Below are positions 6,693 through 49,166 of a DNA stretch of 50,049 bases, piece by piece; position 1 is the first letter of the stretch, and every line of letters begins with the position of its first letter. Below the pieces are notes generated by a model. That model saw only the letters and a program-made list of their open reading frames with translations, did no database searches and was not told the origin of the DNA. This stretch comes from Spirochaetia bacterium. GTDB lineage: Bacteria > Spirochaetota > Spirochaetia > Treponematales > Breznakiellaceae. Both the position numbers and the translations under genes were made by a program. Location of the stretch: the NCBI GenBank assembly GCA_025997595.1, contig BNUU01000010.1, forward strand, positions 1 to 50,049, given 5' to 3'.

Positions 6693-9638
6693 CTAAAAAG
6701 CCCGGACAGCACGAACATTATACGTACAGTACTTATAGTCGATCTCCTGTATGCAATTGATGGGATTCATACGCATCGCCTTATCATTAGCGCCGGACCC
6801 CGAAACCCAGTAGAACGTACTGGTATTAAGGTTGCCGCCTATAGCCGCCCACATCAAGGCAAATTCAGGATTGTTGGGGAGGAACCAGTCGGTTTTACTG
6901 CCGTAGCTGTACTCATTGCAAGCTTTGGCCGCAGGTGCGTCAGGGTCTGCCTCCAGTATCGCGGCGGTATTTGCCGCGCCTTCCCCTAAGGTGTATCCCT
7001 GCGCACCGTTTATGAAAGTTGCCGTATAATCGGAAGAAGCCCACGCAAGGGTTGTGCTCATATCCGCCGGAGCCGCTTCTAGGTAGTGGCAGGTTTCGCC
7101 GGTTAAGGTGTTTATAAAGCCTTCTGTGCTTACATAGAAAATTATCCCGCCGCCGGGGCCGGTATCGCCGATGGCGAATGGAACGGTAACCACCACCCAT
7201 CCCGATACCGTCCCCGCAAAGTTACTCCCCGTCTGCTTGACACGCACATAATAAGTCCCCGCTGCCGCCGAACCACTGTAAGCAGTCCAGCCGCTTGTGC
7301 CGTTTGCGCTATATTCCATAGCCGCAGTTGCGCCGGTAATCACCCCCACGCCGCCCGATACGCTTGGCGCCCCCGGGCGCGCCGGAATCGTGAGCGATTG
7401 CGCTACGCTGTCCGTCGTGGTTGTGCCGTTGCCTTTCTTCACAATGGAAAGTGAAACGCTTGAGCTTGTGCTGATAAGGCTTGCGATACTGTATGTGCCG
7501 TCGCTCACTATCACGTTGCTGCTATTAATAGTGTAGCTTCCGTTTGCAAGCCCGGTGAGTTTTTCGGTTGCATAGTTGATAGCCGCATTGGGCTTTGTTT
7601 CAGCCGTACCGGTAAAAGCATTGATAGTGATGGAAACTTCCGCGCTCTTGAACGCGCTTGCAGTTGCCTTGATGCGCACCGCATAACTACCTGCGGCAAG
7701 TCCCGTCACACTGCTGCCCGTGATGGCTGTCCAACCGGAATCGGCGCTGCGTTTGTATTCCATGTTTGACGTCGTTCCGTTAATGCCGCCTGTCCCGCCG
7801 ATGCTGGTCGGTTGAATTGCCAATACGCCCGGCGCCCCCGGTCGCGCGGGAATAGGGAGTGATTGTGCCGCGCTATCAGTCGTGGTCGTGCCATCGCCGG
7901 TTTTCTTAATAGAAAGCGTTGTGCCGAACCAGATGCTTTCAATGGCAATCGTGCCGGAAGCATCCGCAGTTTTCGCACCATCATTCACGGTGTAGTTTGC
8001 GTTCGCGGTCAACCCGGTGAATTTTTCGGTTGCATAGTTGATAGCCGCATTGGGCTTTGTTTCAGCCGTACCGGTAAAAGCATTGATAGTGATGGAAACT
8101 TCCTCGCTCTTGAATGAGCTTTCGGCCGCCTTGATGCGCACCGCATAACTGCCTGTCGCAAGCCCCGTCACGCTGCTGCCCAAGATGGCAGTCCAACCGG
8201 AATCTGTGCTGTGTTTGTATTCCATGGCGGAAGTCGTTCCGTTGATACCGCCTGTCCCACCGATGACGGCGGGTTGAATTGCCATGACGCCGGATATTGC
8301 GGGGCGTGCGGGAACCGCAAGCGATTGGGCCTCGCTGTCCACGGTGGTCGTGCCATCGCCGGTTTTCTTAATGGAAAGCGTTGTGCCGAACCAGATGCTT
8401 TCAATGGCAATCGTGCCGGATACGTCCGCGCTCTTTCCGATGGTATTCACGCTGTAGTTTGCACTCGCCGTCAGTCCGGTCAGCTTTTCGTTCACATAGT
8501 CGATAACAGCTGCGGGCGTCACTTCAAGCGTAGCGCCAAAAGGACTAATCGTGATGGAAACTTCCGCACTTTTGAATGAGCCTGCGGCCGCCTTGACGCG
8601 CACCGCATAACTGCCTGTGGCAAGTCCCGTTACGCTGCTGCCCGAGATGGCTGTCCAACCGGAATCTGTGCTGCGTTTGTATTCCATGGCGGAAGTCGTT
8701 CCGTTGATACCGCCTGTCCCACCGATGATGGCGGGTTGAATTGCCATGACGCCGGATATTGCGGGGCGAGCGGGAACCGCAAGCGATTGGGCCTCGCTGT
8801 CCACGGTGGTCGTGCCGTTGCCGGTTTTCTTAATGGAAAGCATTGTGTCGAACCAGATGCTTTCAATGGCAATCGTACCGGAAGGGTCCGCGGTTTTGGC
8901 GCCATCATTCACGGTGTAGTCTGCGCCTGCGGTCAGTCCGGTCAGGGTTTCACCGATAAAATCAATAAGGGCTTCGGGCTTAGTTTCGGGTGTTGTACCC
9001 CCTGTTTCTATTGATACAATCACCGCCAATAGGTAATCCAGCGTTGCCTTTTCAGTACCCAAGAGGGCCTTTGCTTCCGGACTCAATCCCCCAAAAGCCG
9101 CCAATACCGCCTCCACCGCTGTTTTTACCGAAGCAAGCGCCGTTTCGTCCAAATCGGCGAAGCCCTCTGCGGTAAGCGCCAGGACTTCGGAAACCGCACC
9201 ATCCGAAAGAAAACCGTTCAATGCGTCTATAGTTGCTTCCGTAGTACCGGAGGGTACAATCTTCACCGTTGCGGCGCCCTCCTTACTCGTGTCCGCCGTT
9301 GAAACCGCCTTGACGGTTATTGTTGTTTTGCTTTCACCTGCGGCAATTGTCAGTACGTTGCCTGCAAATTTCGTGCTCTCAGCCACGCCTGTAGTCACGA
9401 TTGTCCATGTAACGGTTTGCGCGGGGCTATTCGTGCCGTTCACCGCTGCGGAAAATGTCTTGGTCCCGCCCTGTTTTATCACCACCGTTGCCGGACTCAC
9501 CGTCACGCCGGTCACCGTTGCCGGATCGCCGCCGTCACCTGCGTCTGTTGGGCAGCCCATCAGAACCAATCCGAATAGTAGCATGGCTGCTATTGCCGCT
9601 TTGCTGATAATCCCCGTTAGAATCATCTTCTTTTTCAT
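6693..9638 (-). CDS. Large repeat-containing surface lipoprotein
   Basis: A 981-residue exported protein. Residues 1-29 form a lipoprotein signal with LVLMGC as lipobox, so the mature N-terminus is a lipidated Cys. Residues about 38-130 are a bacterial Ig-like (Big2) domain (VTGVTVSPATVVIKQGGTKTF). A helical Ala-rich stretch follows, to about 215. Four repeats of roughly 154 residues run from about 219 to 800, with recurring EKLTGLTA, GTIAIESIWFGT, SIKKTG.GTTT and AMEYK.STDSGWTAI motifs. The C-terminus from about 805 is a DUF1566/formylglycine-enzyme-like fold (GDTGPGGGIIFYV ... WFLPN ... YNVRAVRAF). Likely a cell-surface adhesin or binding protein. A divergent XRE regulator sits upstream. 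Confidence 0.85.
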   Translation of the reverse strand: MKKKMILTGIISKAAIAAMLLFGLVLMGCPTDAGDGGDPATVTGVTVSPATVVIKQGGTKTFSAAVNGTNSPAQTVTWTIVTTGVAESTKFAGNVLTIAAGESKTTITVKAVSTADTSKEGAATVKIVPSGTTEATIDALNGFLSDGAVSEVLALTAEGFADLDETALASVKTAVEAVLAAFGGLSPEAKALLGTEKATLDYLLAVIVSIETGGTTPETKPEALIDFIGETLTGLTAGADYTVNDGAKTADPSGTIAIESIWFDTMLSIKKTGNGTTTVDSEAQSLAVPARPAISGVMAIQPAIIGGTGGINGTTSAMEYKRSTDSGWTAISGSSVTGLATGSYAVRVKAAAGSFKSAEVSITISPFGATLEVTPAAVIDYVNEKLTGLTASANYSVNTIGKSADVSGTIAIESIWFGTTLSIKKTGDGTTTVDSEAQSLAVPARPAISGVMAIQPAVIGGTGGINGTTSAMEYKHSTDSGWTAILGSSVTGLATGSYAVRIKAAESSFKSEEVSITINAFTGTAETKPNAAINYATEKFTGLTANANYTVNDGAKTADASGTIAIESIWFGTTLSIKKTGDGTTTTDSAAQSLPIPARPGAPGVLAIQPTSIGGTGGINGTTSNMEYKRSADSGWTAITGSSVTGLAAGSYAVRIKATASAFKSAEVSITINAFTGTAETKPNAAINYATEKLTGLANGSYTINSSNVIVSDGTYSIASLISTSSSVSLSIVKKGNGTTTTDSVAQSLTIPARPGAPSVSGGVGVITGATAAMEYSANGTSGWTAYSGSAAAGTYYVRVKQTGSNFAGTVSGWVVVTVPFAIGDTGPGGGIIFYVSTEGFINTLTGETCHYLEAAPADMSTTLAWASSDYTATFINGAQGYTLGEGAANTAAILEADPDAPAAKACNEYSYGSKTDWFLPNNPEFALMWAAIGGNLNTSTFYWVSGSGANDKAMRMNPINCIQEIDYKYCTYNVRAVRAF
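7290..8980 (-). repeat. Intragenic tandem repeat, 462-bp period
   Basis: Three highly similar units with a period of 462 bases (154 codons; landmark TTTGTAT at 7752, 8214 and 8676) and a fourth, diverged unit at the 3' side lie inside the lipoprotein gene. The period is a multiple of three, so unit gain or loss would keep the frame. The two middle units are nearly identical at the DNA level, which suggests recent duplication or gene conversion. Confidence 0.85.
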
Positions 9639-34360: not shown

Positions 34361-35938
34361 TCAAGGAGTTGCCTCCGCCGGCGTACCGGGGGCTTTTGGT
34401 AATGTCAGGACTATGCCGGGTTCTATCAGGTCGGCATTATTCGGGTTTTCCAGCTTGTCCCGGTTTGCGTTATACAGCAGTGTCCACAAATAGGGGTTGT
34501 TGTAAATTTGCGGATTTGCCGCAATACTCCAAAGGCTGTCCCCCTTCTTAACCGTATACGTACCCAAAGCTGCCGACCCTTGAGCGGCGGCCCCGTTTGC
34601 CTGCGGGGAAGCTGCCACAGCGGTCTCCGCTTGTTTGGCGGCGGCTTCTACCTGGGCCAGCCGCTCAGTTTCCACCTGCCGCTCCGCTTCCGCCTGCCGG
34701 GCGACTTCCGCTTCCTGGGCTTTCAACTGTATTTCCAACTGCTTGGCAGCGGCATCTGCCTGTTTAGCGGCAGCCTCAGCTTCTTTAGTTGCAGCTTCGG
34801 CCTGTTTAGTCGCGGCATCCGCCTGTTTGGTCGCGGCATCCGCTTGTTTAGCCGCAGCATCCGCTTGTTTTGTGGCAGCTTGCGCCAGTTTGTCCGCAGC
34901 ATCCGCTTGTTTTGCGGCGGCTTGCGCCTGTTTATCTGCGGCTTCCGCTTGTTTTGCGGCGGCCTGCGCCAGTTTGTCCGTAGCTTCCGCTTGTTTGATA
35001 GCAGCTTCCAACTGTTTAGCGACAATTTCCGCTTCCGGGGCCGACCGCTGCGGTTCCGTTTGTACGGCGGGCGCCGCCGGCCGGGCCGACCGCTGAGCTT
35101 CCGTTTGTGCGGCGGGCGCCGCCGGCTGGGTCGACCGCTGCGGTTCCGCTTGTCCGACGGGCGCCGCCGGCGGGGCTTGCTGCCGCGCTTCCGTTTGTGC
35201 GGCGGGCGCCGCCGGCTGGGTCGGCCGCTGCGGTTCCGCTTGTCCGACGGGCGCCGCCGACCGGGCTTGCTGCTGCGGTTCCGTTTGTGCGGCGGGCGCC
35301 GCCGACCGGGCTTGCTGCTGCGGTTCCGTTTGTGCGGCGGGCGCCGCCGGCTGGGTCGGCCGCTGCGGTTCCGTTTGTGCGGCGGGCGCCGCCGGCTGGG
35401 TCGGCCGCTGCGGTTCCGCTTGTCCGACGGGCGCCGCCGGCGGGGCTTGCTGCTGCGGTTCCGTTTGTGCGGCGGGCGCCGCCGGCTGGGTCGGCCGCTG
35501 CGGTTCCGCTTGTCCGGTGGGCGCCGCCGGCTGGGCTTGCCGCTGCGGTTCCGTTTGTGCGGCGGGCTCCACCGGCCGGGCTTGCTGCTGCGGTTCCGTT
35601 TGTGCGGCGGGTTCCGTCGACTGGGCCGACCGCTGCGGTTCCGTTTGTGCGGCGGGTTCCACCGGCTGGGTCGGCCGCTGCGGTTCCGTTTGTGCGGCGG
35701 GCGCCGCCGGCTGGGCATACGGTTCGGATGAAGAGGGCGCCTCATCCGCCGGAGCTTCCCCGTGTGTTTCGGAGGAAGATTCCTCTTGGACAGTTTCTTC
35801 GCCTGAGTCCGGAGGGGCTTCCGCCGCGGCGGGATCTTCAAGCGTCCACCATTCCCCGATACTTTCGCATCCGGGCAGACAGAGGAGCAGTAAGCCGCAT
35901 GCACATCCCAGCATCGTTTGTATTTTTTTCTTCACCAT
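34361..35938 (-). CDS. LysM lipoprotein with Pro/Gln repeats and Ala-rich coiled coil
   Basis: A 525-residue exported protein. Residues 1-24 form a lipoprotein signal with lipobox LPGC. An acidic stretch (about 28-75) is followed by fifteen 15-residue repeats based on PAAPAAQTEPQRPTQ (about 77-300), then about fifteen heptads of the KQADAAT type (about 305-415) likely forming a long coiled coil. The C-terminal LysM-like domain is YTVKKGDSLWSIAANPQIY...LEPGIVLTLP. It may tether the outer membrane or sheath to peptidoglycan, with the repeat arm as spacer; this is inference. It is followed upstream by an outer-membrane protein gene on the same strand. Confidence 0.85.
   Translation of the reverse strand: MVKKKIQTMLGCACGLLLLCLPGCESIGEWWTLEDPAAAEAPPDSGEETVQEESSSETHGEAPADEAPSSSEPYAQPAAPAAQTEPQRPTQPVEPAAQTEPQRSAQSTEPAAQTEPQQQARPVEPAAQTEPQRQAQPAAPTGQAEPQRPTQPAAPAAQTEPQQQAPPAAPVGQAEPQRPTQPAAPAAQTEPQRPTQPAAPAAQTEPQQQARSAAPAAQTEPQQQARSAAPVGQAEPQRPTQPAAPAAQTEARQQAPPAAPVGQAEPQRSTQPAAPAAQTEAQRSARPAAPAVQTEPQRSAPEAEIVAKQLEAAIKQAEATDKLAQAAAKQAEAADKQAQAAAKQADAADKLAQAATKQADAAAKQADAATKQADAATKQAEAATKEAEAAAKQADAAAKQLEIQLKAQEAEVARQAEAERQVETERLAQVEAAAKQAETAVAASPQANGAAAQGSAALGTYTVKKGDSLWSIAANPQIYNNPYLWTLLYNANRDKLENPNNADLIEPGIVLTLPKAPGTPAEATP
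35040..35715 (-). repeat. 45-bp minisatellite within LysM lipoprotein gene
   Basis: Fifteen tandem 45-bp units encode the PAAPAAQTEPQRPTQ-type repeats. Variant units alternate (AAQTEPQ versus VGQAEPQ, and RPTQ versus QQAR/QQAP). The length is a multiple of three, so copy-number changes keep the frame. Long open frames on the other strand here are a by-product of the repeats. Confidence 0.88.
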
Positions 35939-40862: not shown

Positions 40863-41079
40863 ACTTAGCCTCCACTTCTGCCATATTCCAGCCGCAATTC
40901 CGCAAATAGTCTTTGCCCCAATCAACTTTTTCCATGAGGATTCTCGCCACATAAGCCGGCATTGGTCTTGTTTTGGCTAATTCATTTGCTTCATCCTCTT
41001 TTCCTTCACGCTCCAGACGTGCACATTCTACTCCGATTGCGAGCCGTTCATCCAATGTCATTAGACGGTTCTCTGCCAT
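40816..41079 (-). CDS. Hypothetical protein, first gene of a small two-gene module
   Basis: An 87-residue acidic, helical protein (LTLDERLAIGVECARLEREGKEDEANEL...). No recognised domain. A strong GGAGG precedes the ATG at 41079, and its 3' end overlaps the next gene. It could be the antitoxin of the pair, judged from size and helical character only. Confidence 0.6.
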   Translation of the reverse strand: MAENRLMTLDERLAIGVECARLEREGKEDEANELAKTRPMPAYVARILMEKVDWGKDYLRNCGWNMAEVEAKYGKDWLDNWDNGSGA

Positions 41080-41137
41080 AATTCGCCTCCATGGGTATTT
41101 TAGCATATTCTACATCATCAATAAAGAATTTGACCAT

Positions 41138-41581
41138 TCATTCCTCTTCATCCATCGCGGCGTCAGACACCTTTTGGGGAACCTTTGACAGGGCAAAATC
41201 ATAGACCGCCTGGGCTTGTGCGATGGCCGTTTGGGTCATTTTTTCATCAACAACGATTCCACCGGGATACCAGGCATCAATACCGTAAGGGCTTAGTTTT
41301 GAAGCAGCCTCCAAAACCGTACAAAAAGAAACATCCAACTCCATACACTCCCGGCAAAGCACTCCAAGGTCATCTGTATCTATTCGCGGCGGGTCCTTTC
41401 CCTTGTATTGCAAATACCCCTTTAAAGCTTTCTCTGCGGCCTGTTGGCAGTGAAAACAAGATATGCTTAGACACCTGGGCGACATATTCTCATAACTATA
41501 CTTCGCCATGAACAAATCATTACGCGCTATAGTAAACCATTGCTTTGTAATATTCATACTTATCATGTAATAACTATCCAT
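41138..41581 (-). CDS. HEPN-domain protein
   Basis: A 147-residue protein with a HEPN fold: WFTIARNDLFMAKYSYEN helix, then CFHCQQAAEKALKGYLQYKG, then PPRIDTDDLGVL, where the usual His-Asp-Leu is replaced by Asp-Asp-Leu. Such proteins usually pair with an MNT nucleotidyltransferase; no intact MNT gene is next to it. I chose the ATG at 41581 (GGGGCAAGGGG upstream); ATG 41557 is also possible. The region upstream carries only short fragments, so the partner may have been lost. Confidence 0.7.
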   Translation of the reverse strand: MDSYYMISMNITKQWFTIARNDLFMAKYSYENMSPRCLSISCFHCQQAAEKALKGYLQYKGKDPPRIDTDDLGVLCRECMELDVSFCTVLEAASKLSPYGIDAWYPGGIVVDEKMTQTAIAQAQAVYDFALSKVPQKVSDAAMDEEE

Positions 41582-41632
41582 GGCCCCTTGCCCCTCATCT
41601 CGTTCTGCCAGCACATCGCCGTCACGCTATAT

Positions 41633-41746
41633 CTAGTTACTGTTTTTTCGAAAATTATCCGCATCGTTCAGAAAGACATCGAGAATACCGAATCGTTCTG
41701 TGAGTGCCTTAAAGCCTTCTGTCCTGAGTACTGTTTCATTAATCAT
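41633..41746 (-). pseudogene. Truncated antitoxin-like small ORF
   Basis: A 37-residue frame beginning MINETVLRTEGFKALTERFG with a strong AAGGAG ribosome site. The first 23 residues resemble the start of small proteins found before PIN toxins in related bacteria (from memory, not searched). After ILD the sequence loses similarity and stops. Probably a truncated gene, though a functional small protein cannot be ruled out. Confidence 0.35.
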
Positions 41747-41763
41747 ATACGCTCCTTATAAAG

Positions 41764-41886
41764 TCAAAATGACCATACTAATTCCAGCTCATCTTGTTTA
41801 ATGAGTTCCTGTACTCGCAGTTTTGCATCGGTTTCAAACCGAATAATTAACGATGTTTGAGCGTCATAAGGACGGTAGGTCAAAGG
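41764..41886 (-). pseudogene. Fragment of a PIN-domain toxin
   Basis: Reads TYRPYDAQTSLIIRFETDA then KLRVQELIKQDELELVWSF and stops. PIN toxins of one class begin with a strand, NRPYDD, then LE.EAKL.IQ..I.....LVWS, so this matches their first quarter without the start codon and without the rest. It overlaps the end of the restriction-enzyme scar. Decayed remnant. Confidence 0.45.
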
Positions 41887-41945
41887 GGGTGGCCACCGGA
41901 CTTTAGGTCAAGCATTTTGTCCACAAGCTTGTCGTGGGCGGTTTT
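41880..41945 (-). pseudogene. Scar copy of restriction-enzyme C-terminal segment
   Basis: Reads KTAHDKLVDKMLDLK and then leaves the homology. The restriction enzyme at 45.5 kb has KTAHDKLVSLVDKMFELK at the matching position, and the copy at 43.4 kb has VAHDKLVDKMLELK. It starts inside the stop codon of the antitoxin gene. Only about 15 codons remain. Confidence 0.55.
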
Positions 41946-42141
41946 AGATAATTACATTCCCTACACTTTTTTGTGCATTTAGTTCTAATATGAGCGGTTC
42001 TGCCCGTTTATGAATGTCGGCTAACTGCTCCTCCACAGTGGCGTCTTTCAGGCGTTCATAATTCCACTCCCGAATTTTATGAATGTCATCAAGCGTAAAA
42101 TTCGGGCTCAGTTTGGGTTTTGGAATGTCATAGTGTATCAT
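41944..42141 (-). CDS. Small antitoxin-like protein of PIN module
   Basis: A 65-residue protein, charged and helical (LDDIHKIREWNYERLKDATVEEQL). It starts one base after the PIN gene stop, with GAAGGAG as ribosome site. Its position after a PIN toxin gene and its size suggest antitoxin. Unusual order: toxin gene first. No DNA-binding domain is obvious. Confidence 0.6.
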   Translation of the reverse strand: MIHYDIPKPKLSPNFTLDDIHKIREWNYERLKDATVEEQLADIHKRAEPLILELNAQKSVGNVII

Positions 42142-42142
42142 T

Positions 42143-42619
42143 TTATTCTCCTTCTATTATTAGACTTGGCGGGGCATAAATCAAGAGATTATTATACCCT
42201 TCAAGCGCGGTCACCGCTTTTATACCTGTCATTGTTTTATGATTTACAATGTGGTTGAAGTTCCACGAAACGATGGCATCACAACCACTCACGATAGCAT
42301 TAGCTATATGACGGCAATCATCGAAGCTTTTTTGTTTAAGAATACCCAAGTCAACAATTCTGCTTGCAATATCAACAGCTTTTGGTTCTGATTTAACCAA
42401 TTCATATTCTATTTGTGCCAAATATTTCTTTAGTGTATCTCTCTTTTTTTCTTCGCAGTCATCAATTTCGATAATATCAACATCGGATATGACAACAGTA
42501 TACACCCCGGCTTTAATTTGATTCCATAGCCTACGTGTTTCCGCCATTTTTTCCGGTGCATCCTGCTGGTCAAGATAGCTGATAATCGAAGTATCAAGAT
42601 ATAGTTTAAGTTTTTTCAT
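42143..42619 (-). CDS. PIN-domain toxin (putative ribonuclease)
   Basis: A 158-residue PIN protein. LYLDTSIISYL near residue 6 gives the first acidic residue, DVDIIEIDDC the middle, FDDCRHIANAI and AIVSWNFNHIVN the C-terminal active-site region (most family members have similar WNFKHI). PIN toxins cut RNA using Mg or Mn. GAGG before the ATG; a 65-residue candidate antitoxin follows at once. AT-rich like the rest of the island. Confidence 0.8.
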   Translation of the reverse strand: MKKLKLYLDTSIISYLDQQDAPEKMAETRRLWNQIKAGVYTVVISDVDIIEIDDCEEKKRDTLKKYLAQIEYELVKSEPKAVDIASRIVDLGILKQKSFDDCRHIANAIVSGCDAIVSWNFNHIVNHKTMTGIKAVTALEGYNNLLIYAPPSLIIEGE

Positions 42620-42670
42620 AGCTTTTCCTCACTTACAGGATACACCCGATATGGCGGTAGGTCAAATTCA

Positions 42671-43330
42671 TTAGTTCAATGATGTTGCAAGAAAATTCTC
42701 AATTCCTTGAACCATTGTTACTACCTGTTCCTTATTAAAGCCTTCCTTCGCGTCATTTTCTTTTCCATGTGCGGCACTATTACGAATTGCTGCAAACCCA
42801 GTGATTTGTTTTTGTATTATTGCACTATAAATACCTGCTTTTGCCAAATCATCGTTCATTCTGTTCATTGTCCCCATTGAAATATTGTTTGAGCTACAAA
42901 GTTCTCTTAAATGTGTCTCAAGGACAACACCAGCAATAATAGCGGCGGCTACATAATAACCTACGTCAAGTAGTTCTTGTGCTTGTTCAATTTGTGAAGT
43001 AAATACTTCCGCTTCAATCAAACTTTTCGCACTTGCACAGTAACCGCCAAGATAATCATCTTTGGCAGCGTTAAATATAGCACGAACAATTTGAAAATAA
43101 CTGTAAACATTGGAGTATCCATTACTCTTTTCTGCACCAATGAATTCTTGATAATGCTCGGAGCCTTTACCGCAAGCATTGCCTACAAGATTTTTTGATT
43201 TAATTCTCCATTCAGCAAGCTTTTCTCCGTCTACACGCTCTATAGAGGAGTTGTTTTTTCTAAATACAGTTTTTTCAATTTCACTAAGTTCTTTTTCCAA
43301 TTCTTCAAATCGTTGGATGTGCTTATTCAT
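42671..43330 (-). CDS. HEPN/DUF4145-like protein with Rx4H motif
   Basis: A 219-residue helical protein. The C-terminal half has AAAIIAGVVLETHLRELC and, later, AIRNSAAHG. The latter holds the R-x4-H arrangement (R, NSAA, H) found in HEPN ribonucleases of abortive-infection systems. The N-terminal half is a charged coiled coil. The ATG overlaps the stop of the C-terminal restriction fragment (ATGA) and has GGAGGAAGC upstream. It is last in the coupled run from the restriction enzyme. An antiphage RNase role is inferred. Confidence 0.6.
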   Translation of the reverse strand: MNKHIQRFEELEKELSEIEKTVFRKNNSSIERVDGEKLAEWRIKSKNLVGNACGKGSEHYQEFIGAEKSNGYSNVYSYFQIVRAIFNAAKDDYLGGYCASAKSLIEAEVFTSQIEQAQELLDVGYYVAAAIIAGVVLETHLRELCSSNNISMGTMNRMNDDLAKAGIYSAIIQKQITGFAAIRNSAAHGKENDAKEGFNKEQVVTMVQGIENFLATSLN

Positions 43331-43542
43331 GCTTCCTCCTCCACCACCTTAATCTCATCTTCTGTCAAATTATACAACTCATACACCAACTTGTCTATCT
43401 GTGTATCAACGGCCCCAATCTGCCGCCCTATCACCGTCTTTACCTGCGGGTTCGGCTCAGTACGTTCCCGACGCTTTAATTCAAGCATTTTGTCCACCAG
43501 CTTGTCGTGGGCTACTTTACCGTACCATTTTTTATATGGCAT
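43327..43542 (-). pseudogene. Detached copy of the restriction enzyme C-terminus
   Basis: The frame encodes VAHDKLVDKMLELKRRERT, EPNPQVKTVIGRQIGAVDTQ, then IDKLVYELYNLTEDEIKVVEE. It matches the last 68 residues of the enzyme at 45.5 kb (TAHDKLVSLVDKMFELK ... EPNPQVKTVIERQIGAVDGQ ...) at about 70 percent of positions. It overlaps the radical SAM gene end by 31 bases and the HEPN gene start by four. It could be a scar of an older restriction gene, or a small expressed protein since the frame is intact. Confidence 0.6.
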
Positions 43543-44282
43543 GCAATATTTCTATCATTACAAAAATCAATGGTCTGCTGTGCCAATGTATTATAAAAAC
43601 TATCTCGTTGTTTATAAGAAGTTACATCTTTATTATAATTCAATCTACCAAAGATAATTTTATCTACAAATCCAATAGACTTAAGTATTGGCAAAAAATC
43701 TTGTTTGAAAATATTCGGTGTTGGATATGGTTCAATGCTTACCCATGTTTTACAGCCTTTGTTATGAAGTTTTTTTAGTGATTCGATTCTTTCATGATAC
43801 GGGGCTGAATTTGGCTCCATGTCTTTTCGGAAAGATTCATCAAGAGAAATGAGTGTTATTCCGTATACATTTTTTGTTGATAAATTCGCAAGAATATCTG
43901 GCAGAATGCCTTTTGTAAGCACTGAACAGGCAATGTTGTTCGCATTAAATTTTTTTATTATTTCAACACTCATTTTGCAGACGTCTGTATAGTTATACAT
44001 AAAAGGATCGGTAGTAAAGCAGAGATGTAACGATGTGATTTTATCCTTAAACTTTGGGATTTCTTTGTCTAGTAATTCCAGTGCATTATTCACGATCGAA
44101 GGTTCAATCCATTCTTCATACGATGCAACTTTTCCAAATCGTCTTGCCATCAAATACGCATAACATGGGTATTGACACCCATGAAAACACCCTTGCACAT
44201 GGTTTACGGTATAATCACCATATTCAACATTTGTTTTGTAGATTAAAGACTTTCGTGTGATTGATTTTTTACAGGTACTCAT
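43512..44282 (-). CDS. Radical SAM protein (three-Cys-motif, SPL-like)
   Basis: A 256-residue protein. NHVQGCFHGCQYPCYAYLMAR (Cys residues at about 32, 36 and 40) is a radical-SAM-type cluster motif of the SPL-like/three-Cys group. LHLCFTTDPFM, CSVLTKG and KTWVSIEPYP fit the barrel. It probably uses S-adenosylmethionine to make a radical; substrate unknown. It overlaps the TcmP gene by four bases, matching the known pairing of three-Cys-motif proteins with TcmP. Confidence 0.75.
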   Translation of the reverse strand: MSTCKKSITRKSLIYKTNVEYGDYTVNHVQGCFHGCQYPCYAYLMARRFGKVASYEEWIEPSIVNNALELLDKEIPKFKDKITSLHLCFTTDPFMYNYTDVCKMSVEIIKKFNANNIACSVLTKGILPDILANLSTKNVYGITLISLDESFRKDMEPNSAPYHERIESLKKLHNKGCKTWVSIEPYPTPNIFKQDFLPILKSIGFVDKIIFGRLNYNKDVTSYKQRDSFYNTLAQQTIDFCNDRNIACHIKNGTVK

Positions 44283-45490
44283 GTTACGCTCCTGATATAT
44301 GCTTTTGTTTCATTATTGAATGACAAAAAAGTGCTTTGTTTGCCTGTCTTTGTTTTACTTGGATCCCTGCGGATAAATACCTGTTGACTTTTTTCTAGTT
44401 CTTTTATCACGTCATTTACTTGACCGCTTTTACAGTAAGGACTATATCTTGTAAAGAACTCTGCCAGAAATATATTAATTTGTGTGTCAGTTTTAAATTG
44501 AGGAATAAGCGAAAGAACATCTTTCTTAATTCTATCTGGACTAATAAGATTATTTTCAGAATCCCCTCCAAAAAAATCCAGTTGTCCAGCATTTTGTATA
44601 TTTTGCCACGATTCCCATCGAGTGCAAATATTATCAGCCATTAAAACACAGCCATCGGGATGATTAGTTGCATGAACCATGCGATATTTTGGGTGTTGCC
44701 CTTGCTTTATGCGTAATGGCATATTCAATACATACTTATAACATTCTTGTAGTTTTTTACAGTATTGCTCTGAAAATATTTTTTCTGCCTCATAACCATT
44801 ATACTTACCCAATTTGTAATCATTGATGATTTTTATCCAGTAATCACCACCGGCAATAGTAGTTAATTCTTCGATTGATTTATCTGACGCATTAAGTTCA
44901 GTAGTGTCATACTCGACAAGATCATCAAAAAAGTCTGCATCAAAATCAATATCTGTTTTACCTAGTGCATGACACGCTTCACGAATAAATCCGAACGAGT
45001 TTAGATTAATTAAAAGTTCAATACTGTTAAAAGCACGTTTTGCAAATGCCTTGAACAGAGAATATTGCAGTGCTTTTATACCATAGGGGTCAACATAGAG
45101 AAAAATATTACAACCATCTTTCTGTGATAGAGTATCTTCGATCTTATCTTCATAAGCACCAGAAATTATTTTTATAAGTTGATTCTCTTGCGGTAGATTT
45201 TTATATAAGTCAGCCGCATAATTCAAATCAATAAAATATGCTTGAATTGACGTTTGACTAATACTCGTGGTATGGATACATTCATTTATAATATTAAGTG
45301 CTATTAGCGGAGAGCCGTCAGCTCCATCTTCAAATTTACCCTTACCAGCAAAACAGTCAACATAAACTAAAGGCTTATGTGTTGTGAGAATCTTTGCAAC
45401 ATAGGGCTTAAAGTAACAGGCCAATAATTCATCTTTTACCACTGACCATAGTTTCTTTACTTTAAAAAAATCATCATTTCGTTTAGGCAT
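44279..45490 (-). CDS. tcmP: Three-Cys-motif partner protein (TcmP)
   Basis: A 403-residue protein. LVYVDCFAGKGKFEDGADGSPLIAL resembles a Rossmann methyltransferase motif I, shown here by landmark DCFAGKG, and FLYVDPYGIKAL resembles a catalytic loop. The length and motifs match TcmP, a family regularly encoded next to three-Cys-motif proteins; biochemical function unknown. It starts two bases after the restriction enzyme stop and overlaps the radical SAM gene, so all three are likely cotranslated. Confidence 0.72.
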   Translation of the reverse strand: MPKRNDDFFKVKKLWSVVKDELLACYFKPYVAKILTTHKPLVYVDCFAGKGKFEDGADGSPLIALNIINECIHTTSISQTSIQAYFIDLNYAADLYKNLPQENQLIKIISGAYEDKIEDTLSQKDGCNIFLYVDPYGIKALQYSLFKAFAKRAFNSIELLINLNSFGFIREACHALGKTDIDFDADFFDDLVEYDTTELNASDKSIEELTTIAGGDYWIKIINDYKLGKYNGYEAEKIFSEQYCKKLQECYKYVLNMPLRIKQGQHPKYRMVHATNHPDGCVLMADNICTRWESWQNIQNAGQLDFFGGDSENNLISPDRIKKDVLSLIPQFKTDTQINIFLAEFFTRYSPYCKSGQVNDVIKELEKSQQVFIRRDPSKTKTGKQSTFLSFNNETKAYIRSVT

Positions 45491-45492
45491 TT

Positions 45493-48390
45493 TTATTCCT
45501 CACCCTTTACCATTTTTATTTCCTCATCGCTCAAATTATACAGCCGATACACTACCTCGTCTATCTGCCCATCCACCGCCCCAATTTGCCGCTCTATTAC
45601 CGTCTTTACCTGCGGATTCGGCTCATCGTGTTCCTTACGCTTCAACTCAAACATTTTATCTACAAGTGAGACAAGTTTATCATGAGCGGTTTTGTCGGGC
45701 AATACAAAAGGCAACTTTTTTACATTGACTGTTTTTACCTGTGCAAATGCCCTTCCTTGTTCTTCAGTAGCATTCTGATAACAATAATTAAGCAATCTCG
45801 AATTAAACAGGGCAAGAACATAACGCAAATCAACTTTGATATTATCATTAAGTAATATCAAATGAACAGTTTTATCATTATGATAACCTTCGGTATCTAT
45901 TGCTCCTATCAAAGAACTGGAAGTTTGGCGGTAAATTATCTTTGGTTTTGTTTCTAATAATTCAGGGGAAAATCTGAATGTATCGTTTTCTTTCAAAAAC
46001 TTGTTATAATTATGTCTTAAATATTGAGAGGGTTTACTCAGGACATACTTTTGAATGTTTGCCCCCTTATAATAAGGAATATCTTTGTCATTTTCTTTAG
46101 TGCCTGAATAGAGAACACGCGATCCTATAGAATCGCCCCGCACTTTCCCCCTACCTTCAGACCAGTAATTATAACCAACATCTTTTATGAGTAATACATC
46201 ATCAAATCTTGTATACTGGTTTAGTTTAGTAATCAATGAATTTTCAAGAACAAAAATCTCAGAAGATGAATTTATTTTACCACGCACAACACCCAAATCT
46301 GATTTTAATATCCATTTTTGTAGGGGTTTTTCTTTTGATATATTTGTTATTGCGGTAAAAACATTTGCCGCTTTGAAAACCGATTTTATTCCAAAATCTA
46401 CGACTTCATTCATCCTGAATTGTCGTAGATATTTTCTGAGCGCTTTAAAATAATCACCTTTCAGATAGGTATTCGGTGTAATAAAAGAAAAGGCACCATG
46501 TTGTTTTAACAATGAAATTGCCTTAACAATAAAAGCAACGTATAAATCATTGTTTCTCTGGAATTGGGTGTATTTGCCTTCAATATATTTTTTGTTACTT
46601 TCGTCAAACACCAATACATACGGCGGATTCCCAATCACCGCATCAAACCCGCCGGAGGAAAATTCACCACGAACCACACTAACCTCACGAATATTTTTAT
46701 TCTTGTTCGTGTTGTTCGTGTTGTTCGTGTTGTTCGTGCCGTTCGTGGTTAAATTCTTAAAAACCTCAGGAAACTCATTCTCCCAATCAAAACAGTTCAC
46801 TTTACGCGCCACCTCATCATCAAAGTCCAGCGTACCAGTGTAAAAATCCGTCCCAATCAAACTATTCCCGCACTTGATATTATTTTCCAGGGAAGGCAGC
46901 AGTGCCATGTCAAATTCGAGCTGCCCGCCGGCTTGTGTACCTTCGTTTTCCAGCAGCTTGAGGTAGAGCGAAAGCTTTGTCACTTCCACCGCCTGGCTGT
47001 CAATATCCACACCGTAAATATTGTTCTGCAAAATCTGCTGCTTTTCCGCAATGGTCAGCTTGTAGGCGCCATGTCCGCCGCCGGAAGAGGTCTCATAAAT
47101 CTTTTCTTTTTTAACAGCGGCCTTTCTGTTTTTCTCCTTCGTGTAATAGTCAAGATGATAGTTGAGCAAATACTGATAGGCGCCCACCAAAAACGACCCC
47201 GATCCGCAGGCCGGATCGACAAAACGCAGGGCGGCGATCTCATCCGGCGTTTTATCCTTTATCAGCACCCCCACCGTATTTTGCACGATATAGTCCACGA
47301 TGTACTGCGGCGTATAATACACCCCACCCGCTTTCCGCACCTCCGGCTTTTCTTCAATGACAGCAGTATGTCCACCTTTCACGCCCTTAAAATGAATCGT
47401 CTTGCCCAAAAACTTTTCGTAAATGTTTCCGAGGATTTCAACCGGCAGCACCGCGAATTCATAGGGACAATCAGGATAATACAGATTGACGATGATATTG
47501 GACAAAATCCTGTCATCAATGTTAACGTTTTCTATCCACGTTTCGCTCTTGAATAAGCCTGAATTGTATTTGATATTTGCGTTGATAAAAAGCTGGTTTA
47601 GGTGTTTATACACATTGATGCCCTGCGAAACCGTTTTAAGCAAATCAACGTCCTCAATTCCCTTGGACTCGGCGATGCGCAGGAATAATATCCGGTCGAT
47701 TGTTTTTTGAACAACCGTATTGAGGTTGTAAATTGAAATGTCGGGATTCCGCAATGCGATATTCTTTGCCAACTCCACACGCCAGTCTTCAACAAAAAGC
47801 AGCAGGTCTTCATCTATCGCTGTGGTGCCTTTCTTGTTTTTATTTTCCTCGACATACCGGTCAAAACTGCCTTTCAGAATGGCGTTTTTTGAAAAGGTAT
47901 CGCGGATAAAATCAAAATGTTGGTCATATTCCCGGAAGGTGCAGTAAAAAATCCGGGCCGCGCTTGCCTTGTCGTTTTTATCCGGCTTAATGCGGGTATC
48001 ATATACGGCAAATTCTTCAAAATTGGTCAGTATCGAAAGGGGCAGTTTGGCGGTATAAGCATAGCGCCGTACCTGAAACGCAGGATCGGCATTGTCTTTG
48101 ATGTTGACTCCCGGCTTTTTGGCTTCCACAAAAAACTTCCGCATTCCACCTATTCTGAAACAGTAATCAGGCGCCTTCTGCTGCCCGTCAATTTTTACCT
48201 TATCTTCCCGTATAACCTCACGGTAATTTTCCGAAAAGCCCTGTTCGTTCCGCACGTCCCAATCGAGCAGCTCAAAGAATTTGTCTATAAAGTCGGATCG
48301 GTGGTGGAGCGGATATATGCCGTTGACGGTCCTAACGGCTTGGTGGGTGAGACGGGACAGAACCCATGAAAAAATATATCGAGATCGCAA
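45493..48390 (-). CDS. Type IIG restriction-modification enzyme, 5' end replaced
   Basis: A roughly 930-965 residue fused nuclease-methyltransferase. From HRSDFIDKFFELLDWDVRN the sequence fits the family: a PD-(D/E)XK nuclease near the start (APDYCF...FFVEAKKPG), a helical linker, methyltransferase motif I VDPACGSGSFL, motif IV VIGNPPYV, then a target-recognition domain and C-terminal coiled coil. It should methylate and cut DNA at one recognition site. Oddities: residues before HRSDF read from the divergent ABC gene and no good start codon exists (only a TTG at 48390 without ribosome site), so the true N-terminus appears lost; and a 34-residue Asn/Thr-rich insert precedes NPPY. Activity doubtful. 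Confidence 0.8.
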   Translation of the reverse strand: MRSRYIFSWVLSRLTHQAVRTVNGIYPLHHRSDFIDKFFELLDWDVRNEQGFSENYREVIREDKVKIDGQQKAPDYCFRIGGMRKFFVEAKKPGVNIKDNADPAFQVRRYAYTAKLPLSILTNFEEFAVYDTRIKPDKNDKASAARIFYCTFREYDQHFDFIRDTFSKNAILKGSFDRYVEENKNKKGTTAIDEDLLLFVEDWRVELAKNIALRNPDISIYNLNTVVQKTIDRILFLRIAESKGIEDVDLLKTVSQGINVYKHLNQLFINANIKYNSGLFKSETWIENVNIDDRILSNIIVNLYYPDCPYEFAVLPVEILGNIYEKFLGKTIHFKGVKGGHTAVIEEKPEVRKAGGVYYTPQYIVDYIVQNTVGVLIKDKTPDEIAALRFVDPACGSGSFLVGAYQYLLNYHLDYYTKEKNRKAAVKKEKIYETSSGGGHGAYKLTIAEKQQILQNNIYGVDIDSQAVEVTKLSLYLKLLENEGTQAGGQLEFDMALLPSLENNIKCGNSLIGTDFYTGTLDFDDEVARKVNCFDWENEFPEVFKNLTTNGTNNTNNTNNTNKNKNIREVSVVRGEFSSGGFDAVIGNPPYVLVFDESNKKYIEGKYTQFQRNNDLYVAFIVKAISLLKQHGAFSFITPNTYLKGDYFKALRKYLRQFRMNEVVDFGIKSVFKAANVFTAITNISKEKPLQKWILKSDLGVVRGKINSSSEIFVLENSLITKLNQYTRFDDVLLIKDVGYNYWSEGRGKVRGDSIGSRVLYSGTKENDKDIPYYKGANIQKYVLSKPSQYLRHNYNKFLKENDTFRFSPELLETKPKIIYRQTSSSLIGAIDTEGYHNDKTVHLILLNDNIKVDLRYVLALFNSRLLNYCYQNATEEQGRAFAQVKTVNVKKLPFVLPDKTAHDKLVSLVDKMFELKRKEHDEPNPQVKTVIERQIGAVDGQIDEVVYRLYNLSDEEIKMVKGEE
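46660..46756. repeat. Dispersed palindromic repeat, copy E, inserted in frame in the restriction gene
   Basis: Left end AATTCACCACGAAC and right end GTTCGTGGTTAAATT are inverted copies, as in the family at 5274. The interior has four or so tandem GTTGTTCGT units. In the protein it encodes NLTTNGTNNTNNTNN... then IREVSVVRGEFSS, placed between PEVFK and GGFDAVIGNPPY. The boundaries of the extra residues coincide with the repeat ends. Confidence 0.7.
48300..48369 (+). pseudogene. Possible 3' remnant of the ABC exporter ATPase gene
   Basis: An open frame ending VDGPNGLVGETGQNP stops at a TGA that overlaps the ATG of the first ABC permease (ATGA), the sort of coupling expected from the missing upstream ATPase gene. 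Nothing of the ATPase core remains; the restriction gene occupies the space on the other strand. Confidence 0.3.
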
Positions 48391-49166
48391 AGATACTGTT
48401 TCGGGTACAGATGGTCTACCGCTTTGATGTAGCCATGACCGCCCTCAGCACCATAGTGCGTGTCCTCTTCGCATGGATACTGTGGGGGGCGGTGTTTACC
48501 GGCCGGGACTATGTGGGGGAATTCACCTTCCAGGCCATGCTGTCCTATTACGTGATCAGCTCCTTCCTTTCAACCAGCATGTCCGAGTGCGGGTGGGTGT
48601 CGGGGGAAGTATCCCGGCGGATACGGAACGGGACTTTCTCAAAGTATCTGGTTGTCCCCGCCAATGTGCAGGGATACTTTATGTTCGAGAAGCTCGGCGC
48701 CGTCGCATACTATACGGTGTTTAGTTTTATTGCCGCGGTCTTTTGTACCCTTGTCTTTCACGTTGAATTAATGTTCGCCGGCGAAATCGCAGCGATACTG
48801 TGCGCCGTTGTCATGATCATCATCGGCTTCAGCTTTATGGTATCTTACCATTACTTTATCGGCCTGCTCACCCTGCAGTTTCAGGATGTGGACTTCTTTG
48901 TCCATGTTCAGGGCAACATCATTGCCTTTGTCACCGGCGCGCTGGTCCCCCTCTCCCTGCTGCCCGACGGGTTCACCGCAATACTGCGCTTCGTCCCCTT
49001 TTACTACGTCACCTATATGCCCGCCATGCTGCTTACCGGACAGGCGGGAGTGGGGGAGGGCTTGCCCGGCCTCGGCATCCTTGCCCTCTGGGCTATTGGG
49101 GCGGCCCTGATCGCAGAGTTCACCTACCAAAAGCTGCGGGTCAAGTATGACGGGGTGGGGATATGA
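48366..49166 (+). CDS. ABC-2 family exporter permease 1
   Basis: A 266-residue membrane protein with six helices; SEVSRRIRNGTFSKYLVVPAN-like region (visible as VSGEVSRRIRNGTFSKYL) and FFVHVQGNIIAFVTGALVPLSLLP fit the ABC2 membrane family commonly encoded as ATPase-permease-permease. It would form an export channel with the next gene's product. No ATPase gene lies upstream in this window. The ribosome site is weak; translation may have relied on coupling to the lost ATPase gene. Confidence 0.8.
   Translation: MKKYIEIAKILFRVQMVYRFDVAMTALSTIVRVLFAWILWGAVFTGRDYVGEFTFQAMLSYYVISSFLSTSMSECGWVSGEVSRRIRNGTFSKYLVVPANVQGYFMFEKLGAVAYYTVFSFIAAVFCTLVFHVELMFAGEIAAILCAVVMIIIGFSFMVSYHYFIGLLTLQFQDVDFFVHVQGNIIAFVTGALVPLSLLPDGFTAILRFVPFYYVTYMPAMLLTGQAGVGEGLPGLGILALWAIGAALIAEFTYQKLRVKYDGVGI

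Follow-up and report, generated by a model that had tools for sequence, protein, structure and literature searches.

Does a tight run of genes on one strand of a bacterial contig represent a single defence system, or a collection of parts that came to stand next to each other? The question is raised by contig BNUU01000010.1 of a Spirochaetia bacterium (assembly GCA_025997595.1), of which a stretch of 50,049 nucleotides, here called the window, was analysed. Between positions 42671 and 48390 it carries a type IIG restriction-methyltransferase gene (IIG gene), the gene for TcmP, a radical SAM gene encoding a three-cysteine protein, a short reading frame resembling the end of a restriction enzyme and a gene with a HEPN motif. 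A first-pass annotation had proposed that all five act as one coupled defence system. Our analysis revealed that TcmP and the three-Cys radical SAM protein constitute a genuine conserved two-gene module. The IIG, TcmP, radical SAM and HEPN genes do not co-occur as a set in the sampled loci, and the five-gene set was therefore rejected as one conserved system.

To collect loci, IMG/VR, the phylum of the window and one Firmicutes-side class were scanned with profiles. Fifty-four loci entered the comparison; removal of seven duplicates (identical last 200 residues) and of L017, whose radical SAM gene was missed by the reading frame picker, left 46. Left out of the locus set were L019 (contig ends at TcmP), L020, L021, L071, L072 (same sequence as L010) and L081 (same contig as L017), as well as L011 and L014 (shorter stretches of L038 and L039) and L025, L040 and L043, in which TcmP stands with other radical SAM branches. 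Near-identical pairs persist among the 46 loci, TcmP is split in L027 and the radical SAM frame of L039 is short. TcmP lies immediately 5' of the radical SAM gene in 41 of these 46 non-redundant loci, with a 4-base overlap in the window; of the other five, two run off the contig end, one has TcmP elsewhere nearby and two have divergent proteins there. Few genomes carry this radical SAM branch: with the query genomes counted in, it turned up in 10 of 391 from one class and in 6 of 392 from the phylum of the window. Branch members are 53-66% identical to the window protein and their TcmP partners 22-58%, the TcmP values being local alignments, some below 60 residues (the 57% of L073 spans just 28). 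The nearest TcmP outside the host genome (G000; 2.26 Mb, 139 contigs, 79% complete) is 76% identical and belongs to the Treponema endosymbiont of Eucomonympha. TcmP proteins were sorted into four motif classes, labelled by us, and tandem TcmP genes of different classes are present in five loci (L077, L093, L094, L095 and L115). At each of these five, the tandem TcmP pair is followed by a single radical SAM gene and a type III restriction-modification (RM) system.

Individual inspection confirmed the reported layout of the run. All five frames lie on the minus strand, and their junctions are a gap of 2 and overlaps of 4, 31 and 4 bases. The region is also AT-rich relative to its flanks, as had been noted, with 42001-47000, taken as five 1-kb blocks, at a GC content of 0.35-0.38 and the remaining blocks of the window at 0.44-0.70. 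The five features are:

45493-48390, minus strand: IIG gene, TTG start (PADLOC, Eco57I, TaqI_C, HSDR_N)
44279-45490, minus strand: tcmP, predicted RlmJ-like class I methyltransferase with a C-terminal extension (TIGR04474; structure model; fold)
43512-44282, minus strand: three-Cys (CX3CX3C) radical SAM gene, like spore photoproduct lyase (SPL) (PF04055; fold comparison)
43327-43542, minus strand: tail scar 2 (the 'RM tail' frame), a copy of the IIG 3' end, probably no gene (77.8% over 158 bp)
42671-43330, minus strand: HEPN (DUF4145-like) gene, independent cargo (Rx4H motif; neighbourhood counts)

Profile scores agreed with the identities given to the first three genes. The IIG protein matches PADLOC REase_MTase_IIG with 590 bits, TcmP matches TIGR04474 with 116.1 bits (cut-off 53), and the radical SAM protein matches PF04055 with 41.7 bits (cut-off 29.5). 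The HEPN Rx4H motif was likewise corroborated: RNSAAH (R183-H188) is invariant in 26 of 26 aligned sequences, window included (26 of 120 matches listed). At E 0.01, Pfam gave nothing for the window HEPN protein; some of its close relatives carry PF13643 or PF14355, and a near relative (70%) comes from a Spirochaetia bacterium, which together with the nearest TcmP makes a gut spirochaete the likely source.

The neighbourhood of the HEPN gene is a different matter. Its type, looked for by blastp with the window protein (other HEPN kinds were not sought), stands near the pair in just 1 of 46 loci, namely the window; RM neighbours are present in 23 of 46, and the conserved unit is thus TcmP plus radical SAM. 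In all six plasmid records inspected around HEPN homologues (of 26), no TcmP is annotated and the HEPN gene does not belong to an RM operon; one of them has a Dam-type methyltransferase about 4 kb away. A scan of viral contigs with the HEPN protein confirmed no relative. On the locus counts and the plasmid records, HEPN was rejected as a partner of the module, and abortive infection via HEPN, suggested by the first-pass annotation, is not supported within the TcmP-radical SAM unit. An integrated base-modification and abortive-infection machine of IIG, TcmP, radical SAM, tail and HEPN would account for the tight one-strand spacing and the common AT-richness, yet it is very unlikely, given the rarity of this HEPN type and of IIG genes near the pair (see below), the nature of the tail as a scar, and the other cargo that related IIG genes hold at the same position. 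A second HEPN protein (PF05168, E 1.1e-18) is encoded farther downstream at 41138-41614; its homologues adjoin nucleotidyltransferase-like genes in L064, L154 and L070.

RM genes are located within five genes of the pair in half of the loci, as counted above. They comprise type III Mod in nine loci (Res in seven; Mod alone was seen in L077 and L087), HsdM-type genes in six, IIG genes in two (window and L018, with the fused methylase-specificity protein of L118 countable as a third), and a HindIII nuclease with a DUF1156 methyltransferase, GmrSD and McrBC in two each. These assignments were made by blastp (E 1e-6) to Pfam- or PADLOC-identified representatives, so that unlike RM genes are missed; the GmrSD match of L041 stems from a common DUF4357 domain, and L041 also has HsdM and HsdR. 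Other defence genes near the pair encode AIPR/AbiU, SEFIR, AbiEii, a DrmD-like helicase and a ThsB TIR domain. Among host genomes, a DNA methyltransferase (PF02384/PF01555) lies within 6 kb of the pair in 8 of 19, against 0.36 expected (P 5e-10), and in 7 of 18 with the window's own genome excluded (P 9e-9). This test covered 19 of the 20 branch genomes (the divergent G408 was left out), several with very short contigs, and used uniform placement as null. The association that had been expected for TcmP and radical SAM was hence borne out for RM genes and failed for HEPN.

What might the pair do beside restriction genes? The predicted TcmP model (pLDDT 85.7) has an RlmJ-like core fold, and the radical SAM partner has a predicted SPL-like fold. 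RlmJ is the 23S rRNA A2030 N6-methyltransferase (PF04378). Unlike RlmJ, TcmP has no Pfam match at E 0.01, and hence none to PF04378, and it displays the motif DPYG and an extra C-terminal part. HHalign of the TcmP alignment with a single RlmJ sequence was not significant, so that the link to RlmJ rests on the predicted fold and on a weak family match, the RlmJ of a relative (L016) matching the TcmP model below the cut-off. In BFVD, nothing matched the TcmP model at E 0.001. SPL has DNA as its substrate; its usual Cys spacing, like the methyltransferase motif names used here, belongs to general background. The window radical SAM protein differs from SPL in its CX3CX3C spacing and scores below the cut-offs of both SPL families (16.9 vs 400 bits for TIGR04070, 15.7 vs 27 for PF20903).

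A base-modification role would fit both predicted folds, and the pair is most likely a nucleic-acid-modifying accessory of restriction loci. TcmP would bind and probably methylate nucleic acid, and the SPL-like enzyme would act by radical chemistry on the base concerned or on an adjacent one; as an accessory arm of the restriction locus, the two would jointly add or remove modifications on DNA or RNA. TcmP would confer target specificity and diversify, with the radical SAM subunit as the constant catalyst. The same folds also bear on another explanation, in which the pair guards the cell by modifying host tRNA or rRNA and halting growth when the restriction system is blocked or DNA is damaged. 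The nearest folds of TcmP are the RNA methyltransferases RlmJ and Trm1, and some loci have CapP-like M78 and HTH regulators upstream. SPL, however, acts on DNA, and no conserved antitoxin-like partner was seen among the clustered neighbours; we consider this explanation improbable.

In the regulator-bearing part of the family, a homologue of the M78 peptidase is found in 12 of the 46 loci, about 650 residues long where complete, one member matching capP at 2.6e-11; in L024 the homologue lies downstream, and in L085 and L093 it is a short frame. HTH_26 proteins are present in 14 of 46. L119 (11263-13603) and similar loci show the divergent, CapP-like M78 peptidase of about 650 residues and an HTH_26 gene upstream of TcmP, radical SAM and a type III RM system, an arrangement which is likely a damage-responsive switch. 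It resembles CapH/CapP regulation in combining an M78 peptidase with a small HTH protein, mostly divergent and upstream; unlike CapH/CapP, it is placed before TcmP-radical SAM-RM and its peptidase is much longer (about 650 aa), and none was seen at the window locus. In these members the peptidase and the small HTH repressor would probably switch the module on.

Related gene pairs are already known as candidates. PADLOC-DB contains PDC-M30 (A/B) and PDC-M41 (A/B), whose A models match TcmP and whose B models match the radical SAM partner, and the idea of the pair as defence genes is therefore not new. The window proteins match the A models at 1.7e-11 and 2.1e-7 and the B models at 8.6e-5 and 2.1e-5, the latter with partial coverage. 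The window radical SAM protein differs from PDC-M30/M41 in belonging to a CX3CX3C, SPL-like branch, with just 21.1 bits to DUF5131 (cut-off 28.9), and no description of an RM association of PDC-M30/M41 was found. According to one survey (PMC10855318), PDC-M30 is a predicted system of 32 P. aeruginosa strains, with 68.8% resistant. A table in PMC12445080 places the TcmP gene SMa2243 directly after the phage-defence gene hna (SMa2245), among genes with NolR-changed expression. Pairs of TIGR04474 TcmP and PF07505 DUF5131 (phage Gp37/Gp68) in Actinobacteria and their phages are alike in placing TcmP beside a radical SAM-type gene, and differ in the radical SAM branch and in not always lying on the same strand. 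Five of 26 TcmP plasmid or phage records were inspected. In Gordonia phage Fairfaxidum (L166, 3635-6490), TcmP and DUF5131 lie in the lysogeny region between the immunity repressor and a metalloprotease.

These occurrences bring in a further reading, namely that prophages and plasmids carry TcmP-radical SAM as an independent unit against phages or for superinfection exclusion, which is merely co-resident with RM genes in islands. The Fairfaxidum pair, near an integrase, the pairs on actinobacterial plasmids and in IMG/VR contigs, the 23 of 46 loci in which recognised RM genes are missing and the PADLOC models PDC-M30/M41 all point in this direction. It is possible, if somewhat doubtful, as the pair recurs beside RM systems of several types and stands at short spacing to Mod in the nine type III loci.

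Several observations weigh against the preferred reading of the pair as a modifying accessory of restriction. The uniform-placement null cannot separate a partnership from common residence in defence islands, and RM enrichment is no proof of partnership, because it is expected for any defence-island gene. The 23 loci lacking a recognised RM gene within five genes include some phage contexts (L089, L090, L092) and some truncated contigs. Several RM-positive loci are closely related, so the independent events number fewer than 23, and in L018, L038 and L118 the RM gene lies on the opposite strand. The best Foldseek E-value for the TcmP model belongs to a Trm1 structure, with RlmJ behind, and PDB profile searches with TcmP and radical SAM detected no significant sequence relative; fold similarity is no proof of substrate for either protein. 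In class B TcmP proteins (L112, L119, L075 and others), DCMSNSG replaces DCFAGKG and the DP(Y/F) motif is kept; class B proteins and tandem partners are without the first glycine of the SAM loop (G49), and since this residue is replaced, class B may not methylate.

The short frame between the radical SAM and HEPN genes leads to the origin of the run. It had been taken for a stand-alone restriction C-terminus, which did not hold: the 158 bases at 43343-43500 correspond, with 77.8% identity, to positions 45509-45666 towards the end of the IIG gene, and the first ten codons of the frame lie inside the radical SAM gene in a different frame. As a copy of the IIG 3' end with such a start, the tail was rejected as a stand-alone gene. 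The gene run also continues beyond HEPN with a PIN-like gene followed by a small gene, and a further scar lies directly 3' of the small gene's stop codon, outside the coordinates first given for the run. The additional features are:

45509-45666, minus strand: IIG 3' end, the segment found again in the tail scars (DNA comparison)
42143-42619, minus strand: PIN-like gene (weak PF01850 match, E 0.0066, below cut-off)
41944-42141, minus strand: small gene 3' of the PIN-like gene, probable antitoxin (97% identical relative in L065)
41901-41943, minus strand: tail scar 3, truncated copy of the IIG 3'-end segment (31-base match common with scar 2)
46660-46760, strand not applicable: genome-dispersed short repeat, an in-frame insert in the IIG gene 5' of the NPPY motif (own-genome matches; relatives without insert)

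The 31-base stretch common to scars 2 and 3 had 0 occurrences in 100 shuffles, and the same nine bases of the IIG gene are missing from both scars. Comparison of the whole IIG gene with up to 6 kb downstream in ten same-family IIG loci revealed nine matches, all on the same strand and eight of them within the last 173 IIG bases. These eight are spread over four loci (window 1, L064 2, L154 3, L159 2); the remaining match, in L065, corresponds to a second IIG gene. Upstream of the IIG genes, the ten loci gave just one weak antisense match. Further copies were detected at profile level in L155 and L156. At 9 of 13 IIG 3' ends a same-strand gene begins at -4 to +9 bases, and the following genes encode eight proteins that look different by eye. 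The genes between scars are presumably HicAB-like, PIN, MNT/HEPN-like, ATPase and others, names given mostly by sequence recognition, unscanned. Two of 35 IIG plasmid records were inspected. In G005:C13 (L065), a PIN gene (86% identical to that of the window) and a small gene (97%) directly follow the IIG gene, and a second IIG gene comes next; TcmP, radical SAM, scar 2 and HEPN of the window therefore sit between parts that are contiguous in G005:C13. L065 (1737-9224) as a whole has tandem IIG genes with the PIN-small gene pair between them and a PIN-like gene immediately 3' of each IIG gene. In L155 (3935-7441), a scar array with no IIG gene in the fetched stretch reads PIN-like gene, scar, small gene, scar, ATPase pair, scar.

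Cargo genes begin right at the stop codon of the IIG gene and have IIG 3'-end copies lying between them. We propose that the region is a docking site behind the IIG gene that collects unrelated defence and toxin-antitoxin cargo, with TcmP-radical SAM as one nucleic-acid-modifying cargo, a reading which we judge about equally liable to prove right or wrong. Stepwise recombination between IIG 3' ends would add cargo at every event and leave the old end behind. From the 3' ends, the cargo gene that follows might also obtain a ribosome-binding sequence and, in the window, promoter-like sites. Within 41000-49000, one of the two best minus-strand sigma-70-like matches lies in scar 2 and the other in the IIG 3' end; the total of 25 such matches is at chance level (23.7 expected). 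The promoter-like site of the scar spans 43397-43369, and the scar has a GGAGG end. Set against docking are the presence of DNA-level scars in only 4 of 10 IIG loci, E-values of only 1e-3 to 1e-2 for some profile-level scars, and the scar copies of L155 and L159, each of which opens a frame running into the following sequence; no recombinase was identified, and none was systematically sought. The frames in L155 and L159, together with the 71-codon open frame of the window, could instead mean that the tail works as a small protein or domain common to the cargo genes and is no scar at all. We give this hardly any credence: most other copies are 42-165-base pieces without one or both tail ends (L064, L154, L155, L159), one has an in-frame stop, and the window frame begins out of frame within the radical SAM gene.

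The IIG protein itself has the expected single-protein architecture of a nuclease-like N-terminus, an N6 methylase and a specificity domain (HSDR_N, Eco57I and TaqI_C in Pfam). Its first 35 or so residues are unlike those of five aligned relatives, homology begins at about 48300-48306, and the protein does not have the complete N-terminus of those relatives. Alignments of the L067 and L154 proteins to the window begin at their residues 33 and 38; that of L160 starts from residue 4, but 8 of 36 positions are identical ahead of the junction, against 97 of 103 beyond it. The N-terminus (48290-48390) adjoins a divergent gene at 48366, which looks like an ABC-2-type permease, and the operon's own promoter may be gone. 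The in-frame insert of about 33 residues just 5' of the NPPY motif is a genome-dispersed repeat of 9-base units (TTGTTCGTG), which yields 37 further match rows in its own genome; these stay within query 655-766, and for several the two strands match at one and the same place. The insert is missing from the five related IIG proteins. Elsewhere in the window, large tandem repeat arrays lie at 7551-8926 and 34739-35716 (462-base unit x3; 45-base unit x15, GC about 0.70).

A search of openly licensed papers, preprints excluded, found none that dealt with what TcmP does, with an RM association of this pair or with IIG 3'-end scars, in agreement with the earlier remark that TcmP and its three-Cys partner have no known function. 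Within this literature, the SPL-like branch, the RM link, the exchangeable TcmP classes and the scar array are new. At its widest, and quite tentatively, the pair can be seen as an undescribed radical-chemistry arm of restriction: a common catalytic subunit with exchangeable TcmP target-recognition subunits would write or strip a nucleic-acid modification, so that restriction of any type tells or cuts phage DNA that otherwise escapes, and the arm would spread partly by docking at a scar-forming 3'-end site. TcmP is thus far a named protein without function in the searched papers, and related pairs are only candidates in PADLOC-DB. The near-constant pairing of one radical SAM branch with TcmP, the recurrence beside type I, II, IIG, III and IV systems and the predicted resemblances, of TcmP to a nucleic-acid methyltransferase and of the radical SAM partner to a DNA-lesion lyase, make the function directly testable. 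The scar arrays would constitute a sequence record of how cargo builds up behind a restriction gene, and they caution against treating tight gene runs as single systems.

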